DNA from: Nymphaea colorata
Taxonomy: Eukaryota; Streptophyta; Magnoliopsida; Nymphaeales; Nymphaeaceae
Direction: 5' to 3'
NCBI RefSeq assembly: GCF_008831285.2
Contig: NC_045148.1
Span: 19,645,002-19,709,001 of the forward strand
DNA: 64,000 nucleotides
The position numbers and the translations under genes were made by a program. The notes under the pieces were generated by a model that had not been told where the DNA came from, did no database searches, and worked only from the letters and a program-made list of their open reading frames with translations. Shown piece by piece: positions 25,500 through 39,676 of this stretch (its first letter is position 1; each line of letters starts with the position of its first letter).

Positions 25500-25799
25500 C
25501 TAGGTGGACGAACCAAACTCTGAACTAATCCCTGACCTAGTTGAGCTCGTTTGCGGTCCTAAAGGAATGTTTCTGCTTTTCCAGGTAGGAGGAGCAGGGT
25601 TCACAATGGATGGAAGTGCCAACGAGCTGTTTTCAAGCATGGCAACAACCTTGGACATTTTAGGTCTGCTTGATGCATCTTCTTGGACACATAGCAGACC
25701 AATATGGATGGATCTTAATATTTCATTTTCCTCAGATGTTCCTACCAATATTTGATCCACAGCTTGTAGAGCTTTGTTCTCCCCCCAAAGTCTCCATAC
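25500..25799 (-). CDS. Exon 7: kinase C-lobe and stop
   Basis: Acceptor GTGTAG|GTATGG, 300 nt ending in TAG at 25502-25500. It encodes VWRLWGENKALQAVD, then HIGLLCVQEDASSRPKMSKV, and a Ser/Pro-rich tail (GPQTSSTRSGISSEFGSST). The conserved Arg of RPKM and the CVQ motif are those of the CRK/SRK class. No poly(A) signal was chosen with confidence. Confidence 0.92.
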   Translation of the reverse strand, partial: VWRLWGENKALQAVDQILVGTSEENEILRSIHIGLLCVQEDASSRPKMSKVVAMLENSSLALPSIVNPAPPTWKSRNIPLGPQTSSTRSGISSEFGSST

Positions 25800-26088
25800 C
25801 TACACCAAAATAACATTTTTTGTTATTAATTTACTCTGCAAAGCTGAGATAACACCTTAACCAATATGACGAAGAGCGTTTATTAGGTCTGGAAGCAGTC
25901 CAACAAATTAAGAAATCAATTCCTAAGTTACATTTATATTCATCATAATGAACATGCTCTTTGCTTGGAAATGGTTCAATTACAAACAAGTTGCCTTTAA
26001 AATATGGTGCTATTAAACAATAATACCGGTAATCCACAAAATTTGCCCACTAAATTGTAGAAGCAGAAGAACAAAGTTAAACGCTCAC

Positions 26089-26239
26089 GTAATTTAGTAG
26101 ACTTTCGTCTATCCCTCCTTCACTTGAGAAGAAATTCCTCCTTCCACTTATGATCTCCAGCAGCAAAACCCCAAAGCTGAAAACATCTGACTCTACCCAT
26201 ACTGTTCCTCCAAGAAGATATTCCGGTGCCATATATCCG
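26089..26239 (-). CDS. Exon 6: kinase APE region
   Basis: Acceptor CTGCAG|CGG, donor TTAC|GTGAGC, 151 nt, the length usual for this exon in CRK/SRK kinases. It encodes [20 protein letters not shown], then [20 protein letters not shown] and the conserved DxxxFG are intact. Confidence 0.92.
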
Positions 26240-26580
26240 CTGCAGAAAAAAATGAAAATTTGAAAAAGAAAAACTATTAACGTTAAAGCAGACTAGAATG
26301 CAATTTTGGTAGAAGGACGAGAGACAACATCTGTAGTCCTGTCTTTTCTCTCTTCTTTCCTACGGAGAAAACCCTTGGTTGGAGTCTGAAGGCCCTCTGC
26401 TTTTATCCCTCCCTATACCCTTTCTTTTTCTTTCTATCGTGTCCGAAAGCTGAGATATATGGTCGTAAATACGCTGTTTGCTAAAACCAAATATCTTAAT
26501 TAAAACAGACCCGATCCTAATATGTGATGTCAGAGGCTATCAAATATAGCCTTTGGAAAGTTATAAACAGCAAAAACTTT

Positions 26581-26967
26581 GAGGGGCGTTTGATGGTCTT
26601 GGATTCTGATTTGAGAATTAAAATTCTAGAAACAAAAATCGACTTCAAAATGGAACTAATATGAAAATTCCAATGCCAATTTTCCTTTGTATTTGATAGT
26701 ATGTAATTTTGATTCCAGAATTGAGCACGACGCATTTGATAAAACATGAATTAAAAGTATAGAATTAAAATCTTAGTTGACATGTGTCCTAAAGTTATAA
26801 AAAAATTCTAAAATTTTGGAAACATAGGTAGAATCACAATTCCAAAACCTTGTTTCAAGAATCGGCCTATAATTCCGGAAACAAAATCCTTTGTCTGATA
26901 ATGCAATTCACGTTTCATCAAGAATGAGAATTTCATTTCTAGAATTCTAGACTCATCAAACACCCTC
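26581..26967. mobile_element. MITE in intron 6-side sequence of the kinase gene, 387 bp
   Basis: Ends GAGGGGCGTTTGATG and, reverse-complemented, GAGGGTGTTTGATG. The immediately flanking triplets are TTT and TTA, which would fit a 3-bp PIF/Harbinger-type target duplication with one change. It lies in intron 5, between exons 5 and 6. The interior is AT-rich and non-coding. A truncated relative in opposite orientation is at 18597-18930. The superfamily is tentative. Confidence 0.75.
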
Positions 26968-27321
26968 TTAATGTGGTTATGACTTGGGAATAAGCTCGCA
27001 TTCAGTTCTAAATAAAAATCTATGGTTATATGTACTTGAACCTTACTATTACCTTCTATTATTGTCCATAGCTCCTTTAGGTCTCAATATGAAGCAAATT
27101 AATGGGCAAGTTACCTTTAAAATATGAAAACAAGTTAATGTCAACCAATGGCCTAGGCCTTACGGTTCCTACTAGCTAACTGTTAACGTCACTGAACTAA
27201 TCAACTTTGAGGAAGCCATCCATTAAATTGGAGATAAAAAGATGCATAAGCGCTTAATTATTTGCATTTTTTGCAAAGGCAATCTTTTGGAAGTACAACA
27301 AGCAAGCAACAACCAACTTAC

Positions 27322-37195: not shown

Positions 37196-37201
37196 TGCAA
37201 C

Positions 37202-37374
37202 CTTGATGTTCTAAGGCCTCCTCTTCCTCTGCGATCCACCAGGCTTCAATTTCTTTTTCCAAATGGAACAAAACTCTCTCTTCCACCAGTATAAGCAACA
37301 AATTACACAAGTTACAAGAACCACAACCAAGGCGGAGATCACGATTGGGATAAGAACATGCTTTCTGCTTTGCC
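37202..37374 (-). CDS. Exon 2: transmembrane segment
   Basis: Acceptor TTGCAG|GG and donor CAAG|GTTGCA. The frame that fits phase 1 reads QSRKHVLIPIVISALVVV continuing LVTCVICCLYWWKR: a basic flank, about 22 hydrophobic residues and a basic stop-transfer sequence. This is the layout of CRK-type second exons. The 3' part that joins exon 3 in phase (AEEEEALEHQ into VFKRAD) lies in the neighbouring frame, so one base is missing, probably in the A-run near WKKKLK. The length of 173 nt instead of 174 agrees with a 1-nt loss. Confidence 0.75.
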
Positions 37375-37397
37375 CTGCAAGTATAAATCATTTTCAT

Positions 37398-38872
37398 GAG
37401 AGAGAGAGAGAGAGAGAGAGAGAGAGAGAGCCGATAAAATGGGAATATATAACAAAATTTGGGGACAAGAGGTCCCTTAAATACAAAAACAATCCGCAAA
37501 GAACAAAATTACGCAAAAAACATAAGCAGGAGGAACAAATAAACAATACAATGCACAGAAAAATAGGAGAGAAGAGGAAAGACGAAACGACAAAGTCACC
37601 CAACCGCAGTCAGGTGGCGGCGCTTTAACCGAATGGCGAACTGGATATCCCCTTGCACAAGACGAGCCACAGAATCTGGTGAAGAGAATGTGCCCCTGAA
37701 GACCCTGTTGTTGCGCTCCACCCAAATGCGCCACCAAGCTGAAATGAGCCACGGCCTCCAGACATGACCCCATGAAGCAGTCAGGTGGGGGGAAGGACAA
37801 AAGAGGAAGAAAAGACGAATGGATGGTGGGTTTGGAAGATTACTAACAAGGGAAGGTCAAGTAGAAGCAAGGACACTAGAGAAAAAAGGACAAAAAGTAA
37901 AAAGGTGGACCCGAGACTCAGTCGCAACAAGACATAGGGGACACTGGTTAGCCAAACTGATGCCAAGGCGCTGTAGGTGATCAAAAGTGTTGATATGGCC
38001 AGTCAGAAGAAGCCGAACAAAAGCAATGGCTCGAGGAGAAAGGCCAGGAGACCAAAGAGACCGAGGGGGGAGTGACGCGACAGAGGGACCAAAGGAGGCC
38101 AGGTAGCAAGAAGAAAAAGTGAACTCACGGGTAGGTGAAAGGGGCCAGGATGGGGACGTGAACGATGAGAGGTCAGCAAAGCGGAGGAAAAGAGGAAGGA
38201 CAGAAAGCATGTCGGACCAAAAGTGAGAATGGGAGATGTGAGATATAGAACTATGCCAGACGCTAGGGGAAGGCAGGTCGAATTTTGAACTAATGAATTG
38301 GGTGATGGGAGAATGTTCAGTAGCTAACCGCCACCACCAAGAACACAGGGAAGACTCGCAAGCCCGACTAAGGTTGGTAACCCCAGCACCCCCAAGAAGA
38401 CGCGGAAAGACAACCACATCCCAATGCGCAAGGCGATCTGAAGGTCGATCACCATCCCAAACAAACTTACAAATAATCTTATCAAACCTACGCAAGACAG
38501 CCACAGGAGGCCGAAAGACAGACAAAGCATGGAGAGGAACTGACGCAAGGCAGTGCTTAGCCAAAGTAATCCGACCTGAAAGAGAAAGCAGCTTTCCCTG
38601 CCAACACTGAAGGCGATCCGTAAGCTTCTGCTCCACCCCATCCCAAAAAGAAGGAGCAGGAGGCGACAACGTAATCTGAAGCCCCAGATAGTCCATGGGC
38701 AGACAAGTAGCCTTACACCCAAAGCAAGCTTCCGCGAGAAGTACCGTGGCCGGATCCGCGTGAATGAAGGAGAGGTGACACTTGGCGAAATTGATAGAAA
38801 GACCTGAGATGAGCTCAAAGACCCGAAGGATGAGCCACGTTCTCACAACCTGCTGGCGAGAAGCACTGGAGA
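37398..38872 (-). mobile_element. LINE copy, 5'-truncated, in intron 1 of the kinase gene
   Basis: The minus-strand frame from 38846 to 37857 is open for 329 codons: RTWLILRVFELISGLSINFA, LSGRITLAKHCLASVPLHAL, WDGDRPSDRLAHWD and the zf-RVT tail (GHINTFDHLQRLG, NQCPLCL). It lacks everything up to and including the YADD of RT. The 3' end (ATTTTATCGGC at 37431) matches the LINE at 19720-21523 and is followed by a GA/CT run (37398-37430) in place of poly(A). GAGAGAG also lies at the other edge (about 38873), possibly the target duplication. It is more intact than the other copy and so probably younger. Confidence 0.9.
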
Positions 38873-39341
38873 GAGAACATTAGCCCGATATAGTAATGTT
38901 GTATGCACCATTTGGTGGACTAGAGGATTTTGCCATTTGACGGTGTAGGGCTTAAATTTGATGGGGGCGCTGAAGTTGGGGCCGGCAAGCTGGACGATGA
39001 AGTAAGAGGAGAAGACGATGCTGTGGGCGAACCTGAGAAAAACATATCCACCAAAGTTTTCAGAGAGAGAAATTAAACTCAGCATTTCAAGATCCCACGA
39101 AAAGTCTGAACCAGAACCAGATAACGGAGAATAATTTTTTTTTTTAATAAAAAAAGAGCAAGTAATGCCTAGTAACAAGACGCCAGTGGCTAAGTAGCCA
39201 TCTCATGTCCCCGAACTGCGTAAGTACTCACTAATAAGCTGCTTCGCTTTTCATCTTCTGCAGGAAAGTTACCTTAGCCGAGAAAAATAAAATCAAAGCA
39301 AGTACGGAAAAGAACAACTGAGGGGGCTGTTGACAGCACAC

Positions 39342-39676
39342 TGGTTTTGCAGAGGGAGGCGTCAACGGGGACTTCGCAGAGGGTGGGGATCTCTAAAAGC
39401 CGGGTTATGTTGAAGGAACTGACGGTGGAGGGCGAGTTGTAGATGGCGCACAAGCACTTCATCTGCTTCTTCACGACATAGCTGACGCCCTTGCAGCAAT
39501 CGGACGACGGCTTCTTTGTGGGGTCCTGAACGGCTTCTATGCAGCCTGAAAGACTGGGCAGCATCTGCGTCATACAGTCCTGCAACTGCTGTTGGCCACT
39601 GACTCCTCCAATGGCTGCAGCCTGCAGCCATGGCCACCACCATCAGAACAGCCTTCGCTCTCCACACTGAACTCAT
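39342..39676 (-). CDS. Exon 1: signal peptide and nsLTP eight-cysteine domain
   Basis: The ATG at 39676-39674 opens MSSVWRAKAVLMVVAMAA, a signal peptide with a short basic start and a hydrophobic core. The rest is in another frame after the 7-bp duplication at 39615-39628: QQQLQDC, PSLSGC, SSDCC, MKCLC, IPTLC, DASLC. The cysteine pattern is C-X10-C-X14-CC-X12-C-X1-C-X23-C-X8-C, the plant lipid-transfer/LTPG fold with four disulfides around a hydrophobic tunnel. The exon ends at ACCA|GTGTGC right after the eighth cysteine, in phase 1, the same phase as the acceptor of the membrane exon. Read alone it could be an independent LTPG-like gene; the phase match and the absence of any other first exon favour the receptor model. 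Confidence 0.7.

Follow-up and report, generated by a model that had tools for sequence, protein, structure and literature searches.

We propose that the locus at positions 25500-39676 on the minus strand of the window, i.e. of the whole 64,000-nucleotide stretch of Nymphaea colorata DNA analysed here, very probably derives from a chimeric gene made of an LTPG gene and a CRK (DUF26 receptor-like kinase) gene. This gene would have been duplicated; the window copy has decayed, while a sister copy keeps a 500-codon frame. Gene order, exon phases, homology at the breakpoint, the lesions and the constraint on the kinase between the two copies were all directly observed and carry this reading.

The decayed copy in the window

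Judged from its sequence, the window locus is a pseudogene, a decayed copy of the chimeric receptor-kinase gene (Table 1), since four lesions, in the signal peptide, the linker, the transmembrane (TM) exon and the exon 4 acceptor, break its frame at the splice sites of the sister copy and leave no complete open frame.

Table 1. Features of the chimeric locus and of the elements inserted in it (window positions)
Feature	Position	Strand	Evidence or remark
LTP exon, eight-cysteine LTP_2 domain, own frame	39340..39642	(-)	Pfam LTP_2 8.7e-15; 8CM pattern
Signal-peptide coding stretch, in a frame other than that of the LTP domain	39620..39676	(-)	
Perfect tandem repeat, 7 bases	39615..39628	(-)	At the signal peptide/LTP frame break
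Fused Ser/Pro linker exon	38909..39032	(-)	Homology: 5' part with LTPG exon 2, 3' part with stalk end of CRK exon 1
5'-truncated LINE (zf-RVT), intron between linker and TM exon	37413..38868	(-)	Pfam zf-RVT 1.5e-11
CRK-type TM exon, frame broken	37202..37374	(-)	Acceptor 37374, phase 1
Copia-type LTR element, intron 3' of TM exon	31766..35683	(-)	LTRs 31766-32438 and 35052-35683
Kinase exon 3 (P-loop)	31599..31720	(-)	Donor AGG/GTATTT, phase 0
Kinase exon 4	31256..31466	(-)	Acceptor CAA/GGC; Pfam and splice table
Kinase exon 5	27322..27562	(-)	Pfam Pkinase 1.5e-14; 91% to sister copy
Kinase exon 6	26089..26239	(-)	Pfam and splice table
Kinase exon 7 with stop codon	25500..25799	(-)	

Several elements of the preliminary description were recovered. 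The eight-cysteine lipid-transfer-protein (LTP) domain is there, with all eight cysteines found by a cysteine-pattern scan, and the donor of its exon, after 39342, is in phase 1 in the splice table, matching the TM exon acceptor as claimed. The CRK-type TM exon and kinase exons 3-7 were found as well. We rejected a DUF26 exon hidden in another part of the window, in agreement with the description, the motif C-X8-C-X2-C being absent from the six frames of the whole 64 kb. The LTP exon is 71% identical to that of the sister copy and 73% to that of an LTPG gene on contig C4.

On the other hand, the domain had been called secreted, and this did not hold. Translation from the ATG at 39676 uses another frame than that of the LTP domain and gives MSSVWRAKAVLMVVAMAAGCSHW... 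before a stop; the LTP frame opens directly 3' of a TGA (39645-39643), and no in-frame ATG lies between this TGA and the domain. The 7-base tandem repeat at the frame break is absent from the sister copy and from the C4 LTPG gene. Nor does the LTP exon run straight to the TM exon as had been supposed: the linker exon, joined to it in phase 1, had been overlooked, and the LINE lies between. This linker then reaches an in-frame TAG (38922-38920). Within the TM exon, another in-frame TAG (37213-37211) precedes the donor homologous to that of the sister. The exon 4 acceptor reads CAA/GGC in the window versus CAG/GGC in the sister copy, and the nearest AG, one base later (exon start 31465), gives phase 1 against the phase 0 of the exon 3 donor. 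The seven-exon model, with its GT-AG borders and matching phases throughout, was thus rejected, its start being out of frame and the exon 3 and exon 4 phases differing at the homologous sites.

Transposons and a satellite-like array are found near the locus. The LINE is 78% identical to a second copy at 20058-21485 (+), and TCTCTCTC, which flanks it on either side, may be a target-site duplication, a weak sign as it is CT-rich. The LTRs of the Copia-type element, so called from Copia-like peptides recognised by eye, share 89% identity over 673 columns. The idea that the LINE had united LTP and kinase was dropped, as the sister copy displays the same order without it.

The sister copy

The sister locus (L030) lies in the same genome, on the minus strand of contig C11 at about 19583401-19588385, 96 kb from the window copy, and shows the same gene order, without the LINE. 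Its eight exons, separated by introns that are all GT-AG with consistent phases (1,1,1,0,1,2,0), form a single 500-codon frame through signal peptide, LTP, linker, TM and kinase, ended by a TAA in the last exon. The LTP domain is found in both copies, and only here is a signal peptide in frame with it. Profile searches with this ORF returned LTP_2 (1e-13) and Pkinase (1.9e-44), the latter profile being covered to 204 of 263, so that the TAA shortens the kinase; hydropathy peaks at the signal peptide and the TM, with a weak peak in the kinase. A stop-free run of 499 random codons of this composition would arise by chance with a probability of about 1e-12, which shows a kept frame and not one transcript; the other two frames contain 30 and 25 stops. 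The frame is not completely open in the sister copy either, because of the stop in exon 7, an exon with one stop and one frame shift. Scoring of 34 of 34 candidates revealed no intact copy of the chimera. Fragment C11:20168307 (L049) looks like intron 1 only.

Breakpoint and putative parental families

In the linker exon of the sister copy, homology with LTPG exon 2 ends exactly at the LTPG donor CTTCAG. This alignment, of 57 columns, scores 54, while the best of 200 shuffles reached 25, and the window linker scores 44 against a shuffle maximum of 26. Matches of the whole linker to CRK genes lean on CT repeats (that to L053 consists of CT repeats only), and we therefore used a stretch without them, 60 bases around and after the breakpoint, against eight CRK stalks with 300 shuffles. 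None of the 300 shuffles reached the score for L051, L052, L054, A and B2, and one did for L055 and for B1; L053 (23/300) gave no match, nor did the C4 LTPG gene taken as control (15/300). The alignments of L051, L052 and L054 start at CTTCAG itself.

Both parental families are represented in the genome. C4:22690145 is an ordinary LTPG gene with a linker and, by inspection, a GPI exon. L051-L055 are five good TM matches, all with DUF26 upstream, and kinase exon 5 is closest in identity to exons of the same CRK clusters. By identity, kinase and TM exon at the chimeric loci are of CRK type, and many CRK-type kinase exons lie on the same contig. In the L030 linker, LTPG exon 2 continues in frame into the last part of a DUF26 CRK exon 1, its stalk end, which suggests that the fusion of an LTPG gene with a CRK gene preceded the duplication and, most simply, happened a single time.

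Selection and rarity

Between window and sister copies, the kinase part shows a Ka/Ks of 0.41 (bootstrap 0.27-0.66), i.e. purifying selection. Of 74 LTP_2 loci, two, the window and L030, lie within 20 kb of one of the CRK-type kinase exons in a scan that used a single kinase exon as query and scored 150 of 1,160 candidate exons, so that others elsewhere could be missed. No LTP structure matched the window domain by sequence up to E 0.1, and a match to the PDB chain GCN1 was attributed to chance (E 0.0042 for the whole sequence, 73 for the single domain).

Alternative readings

One could consider two adjacent genes, an LTPG remnant and a CRK lacking its DUF26 exon, whose fused protein was never made. 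Several donors are indeed weak, with scores, based on consensus frequencies, of -2.5 (window) and -3.5 (sister) for the LTP exon and of -0.6 and -0.8 for the sister linker and exon 6, so that the LTP exons could end as a separate transcript; moreover, the LTP part displays no clear constraint between the copies, with a Ka/Ks of 0.82 (0.42-1.69), near 1. We nevertheless find two genes improbable: the frame runs through the join, which is internal to a single exon, the eight exons of the sister copy read as 500 codons, and the kinase stayed constrained after duplication, though no DUF26 exon was found in the 64-kb window and no C-X8-C-X2-C motif in 10 kb of L030. In L030, only 95 bases separate linker and TM exon, with no GPI-anchor exon there.

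Much less credible is the reading in which the window itself codes for a functional LTP receptor kinase, exon 1 being spliced straight to 37374. Phases at 39342 and 37374 do agree, and two of the lesions could be avoided through alternative sites. For the TM exon, a weak donor at 37240, in phase 1, lies before the TAG; for the exon 3/4 junction, an AG at 31445, 20 bases into exon 4 and in phase 0, fits the exon 3 donor at 31599 with seven residues lost, or an intronic donor in phase 1 at 31571 could serve. Combining 37240 and 31571, both in phase 1, keeps the frame open with about ten residues changed or extra at the exon 3/4 junction. Yet these sites differ from those of the sister copy (37240 is not homologous to its donor), the exon 4 acceptor is mutated, and the missing start cannot be avoided in this way: the LTP frame has no start codon, and with the annotated start the reading already fails. 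A chance neighbourhood or an assembly artefact, which the nearby transposons and satellite-like array might evoke, is hardly conceivable, as order and breakpoint recur at a second, diverged locus (77% identity over the LTP-to-linker block).

Proposed origin

According to the chimeric-gene reading, an intra-exonic, in-frame junction would have linked exons 1 and 2 of an LTPG gene to the stalk-encoding end of a DUF26 CRK exon 1, presumably by recombination at the short microhomology CTTCAG/CTCCAG. The new gene would associate an LTP ectodomain and a Ser/Pro stalk with the CRK TM exon and kinase, the two DUF26 domains being replaced. After a duplication that placed the copies about 96 kb apart on C11, the window copy would have gained the LINE, the Copia-type element and the four frame-breaking lesions and become a pseudogene, and the sister would have kept its eight-exon, 500-codon frame up to the TAA in the last exon. 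The chimera may have been expressed as one membrane protein, in which the LTP part would bind a hydrophobic ligand and steer the CRK kinase.

It is a doubtful idea that the chimera founded a young water-lily receptor class, in which an LTP ectodomain loading a lipid or other hydrophobic ligand would drive a CRK-type kinase; a membrane receptor with an LTP domain, its kinase perhaps truncated, would still be made by the sister copy or by intact copies elsewhere in Nymphaea. Within this one genome one can trace the breakpoint, the duplication and the decay, together with a gene related to the LTP donor and genes related to the CRK donor. Should some water lily express an intact copy, one could test directly whether an LTP fold can act as the sensory part of a receptor kinase.

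Comparison with known systems

The chimera shares with LTPG genes the signal peptide (sister copy), the eight-cysteine domain, the phase 1 intron at the domain end and the Ser/Pro linker exon, but no GPI exon separates its linker from the TM exon, and the gene continues instead into a transmembrane kinase. With CRKs it shares the TM exon, the kinase exons and the stalk end, whereas their two DUF26 domains are replaced here by the LTP domain and the LTPG linker. The usual CRK gene is given seven exons (PMC6368629), versus eight in the sister copy; window and sister have the TM exon and five kinase exons, with two ectodomain exons against one in CRK.

The proposal of an LTP-kinase fusion is supported by gene order in the sister copy and by the exonic breakpoint, even though the window copy is broken at the four places described, and the architecture, presented as foreign to standard receptor classes, was nearly so. 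Among the matches listed, such a fusion is named only in PMC9603095, the RLPredictiOme survey of 2022, where the term 'probable lipid transfer-RLK' appears; the passages covered contain no study of it and give no RLK member or gene structure. Going by this name, it too would pair an LTP ectodomain with a kinase domain. The related RLPs described there carry a five-cysteine motif, whereas all eight cysteines are present here. Chimeric genes have also been suggested in PMC6368629 for grass CRKs through exchanged kinase domains: in those genes DUF26 stayed in place next to a new kinase, whereas here it is the ectodomain that would have been swapped.

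Parts and lesions of the window copy

The lipid-transfer (LTP) domain of the window copy is recognized by Pfam (LTP_2, 8.7e-15) and retains eight of eight cysteines, the transmembrane (TM) exon and the CRK-type kinase exons 3-7 are present, as the preliminary description had it, and the motif of DUF26, the usual CRK ectodomain, occurs in none of the window's frames. The readable seven-exon protein that it proposed is not encoded, the start being out of frame, stops intervening and exons 3 and 4 having clashing phases. The LTP frame starts after a TGA (39645-39643), ATG 39676 belonging to another frame, and at the frame break between signal peptide and LTP domain stands a perfect 7-base tandem repeat, absent from the sister copy L030 and from the GPI-anchored LTP (LTPG) gene at C4:22690145. 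As to the direct splice of exon 1 to 37374, it overlooked a closer partner of donor 39342 (phase 1), namely acceptor 39032, which begins a Ser/Pro linker exon whose frame then hits TAG 38922. In the TM exon, a TAG (37213-37211) precedes the donor used by the sister copy. Finally, exon 3 ends in phase 0, and as the exon 4 acceptor is CAA instead of the sister's CAG, the closest AG ahead of that exon is in phase 1.

The TM exon stop could be bypassed via another splice site, 37240, and the exon 3/4 lesion via 31445, at the cost of seven residues, or alternatively via 31571, with about ten residues changed or extra; the lost start is not rescued by alternative splice sites. The window copy cannot act as an LTP receptor kinase. 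Two of its introns contain mobile elements, and other repeats lie nearby (Table).

Table. Features of the two chimeric copies and neighbouring elements
Feature	Coordinates	Remarks
LINE, 5′-truncated	window 38868-37413	intron of window copy
Copia-type element	window 31766-35683	another intron of window copy
L030, eight exons	L030 5385-5043, 4725-4600, 4504-4313, 3853-3735, 3609-3399, 2609-2369, 1100-950, 695-	sister copy
Second LINE copy	window 20058-21485 (+)	78% identical to the LINE within the pseudogene; related reading frames begin farther upstream, about 19720
Copia-like polyprotein frames	window 40621-42441 (+)	just upstream of the gene, opposite strand; family by eye only
Satellite-like array	window 42678-64000	long blocks at about 2.0 kb steps; about 95-97% identity across thousands of bases, among matches listed
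Fragment of LTPG/chimera intron 1	L049 1501-1840 (C11:20168307-20168646)	lone, 77%; no LTP exon found adjoining

A sister copy and its CRK relatives

A protein search with the LTP domain in the same genome (407.8 Mb, 783 contigs; window C11:19645002-19709001) gave 20 matches, the window's own among them, and only two others exceed 70% identity to it, C11:19588041 (71%) and C4:22690145 (73%). Since the genome searches scored best candidates only, further distant copies may exist. The former, L030, lies 96 kb from the window gene; it carries LTP, TM and five kinase exons in the window's order and on the same strand, and lacks the LINE of the window copy. Its introns are all GT-AG with agreeing phases, and the frame runs for 500 codons until a TAA in exon 7; the last exon has a frame shift besides this TAA. 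Pfam finds in this ORF both LTP_2 (1e-13) and Pkinase (1.9e-44, profile positions 3-204 of 263).

By identity rather than by a tree, the kinase half belongs to a CRK cluster. After the window's own, the next eight kinase-exon matches closest to the sister copy are all on C11 and C14, and DUF26 lies upstream of the TM exon in all five CRK loci L051-L055, some of which carry their own stops. CRK-type kinase exons are densely clustered around both chimera copies (C11 about 19.55-20.38 Mb).

Breakpoint in the linker exon

The C4 gene is an ordinary LTPG, with exon 1, a linker exon ending in ...PAPTSG and a GPI-signal type exon. The sister linker exon can be aligned to LTPG exon 2 for 57 columns, and this alignment breaks off precisely at CTTCAG, the LTPG donor (score 54, maximum in 200 shuffles 25; for the window linker, 44 and 26). 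From this join on, the sister linker matches DUF26 CRK exons where they encode the end of the stalk: among eight stalks with 300 shuffles each, the score was reached by no shuffle in five cases and by one in two, L053 being unmatched (23/300) and the C4 LTPG gene, as control, giving 15/300. Alignments begin at the join for L051, L052 and L054 and six bases later for CRK locus B2; the remaining ones cover inner parts only, short of the join. L051 and L052 have CTCCA at the join and L054 has CTTCCAG, thus a few bases of microhomology, which may have mediated the fusion. As both copies are alignable across the join, a single LTPG-CRK fusion before duplication of the chimera is the simplest reading.

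CRK exon 1 of L051 and L052 appears to end AG/GCAAGT or AG/GCATGT, which would mean GC-AG introns; this donor is changed in both chimera copies.

Selection between the copies

Between window and sister kinases (317 codons), Ka is 0.09 and Ks 0.22, a ratio of 0.41 (bootstrap 0.27-0.66); therefore the kinase half was under constraint for some time after the fused gene's duplication. The TM exon (43 codons) gives 0.36 (0.13-0.92). For the LTP exon (94 codons) the ratio is 0.82 (0.42-1.69), and against the C4 LTPG gene 0.54 for the window and 0.56 for the sister, a signal neither clearly for nor against constraint. Identity between the copies is 82% in intron 1 and 89% in the exon 3-4 intron.

Proposed product and comparison with known systems

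Lipid binding is established for the LTP family. Translation of the sister frame as it stands would yield a protein with an LTP domain carried on the secreted side by a Ser/Pro stalk, one membrane span and a CRK kinase missing its C-lobe end, and ligand binding to the LTP domain might control the kinase.

Three exons are the usual layout in two of the four Arabidopsis LTPG groups (PMC7084707). CRKs of seven exons are described in PMC6368629, together with a grass CRK group with an exchanged kinase, suggestive of chimeric gene formation. A survey of 80 plant genomes with 100 ectodomain classes names a ‘probable lipid transfer-RLK’ (PMC9603095), beyond which the titles and abstract beginnings listed in literature searches contained no further named LTP-kinase fusion. 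Compared with known CRKs, it is the ectodomain that has been exchanged in the chimera, and this CRK ectodomain swap is visible together with relatives of both donors and its own decay.
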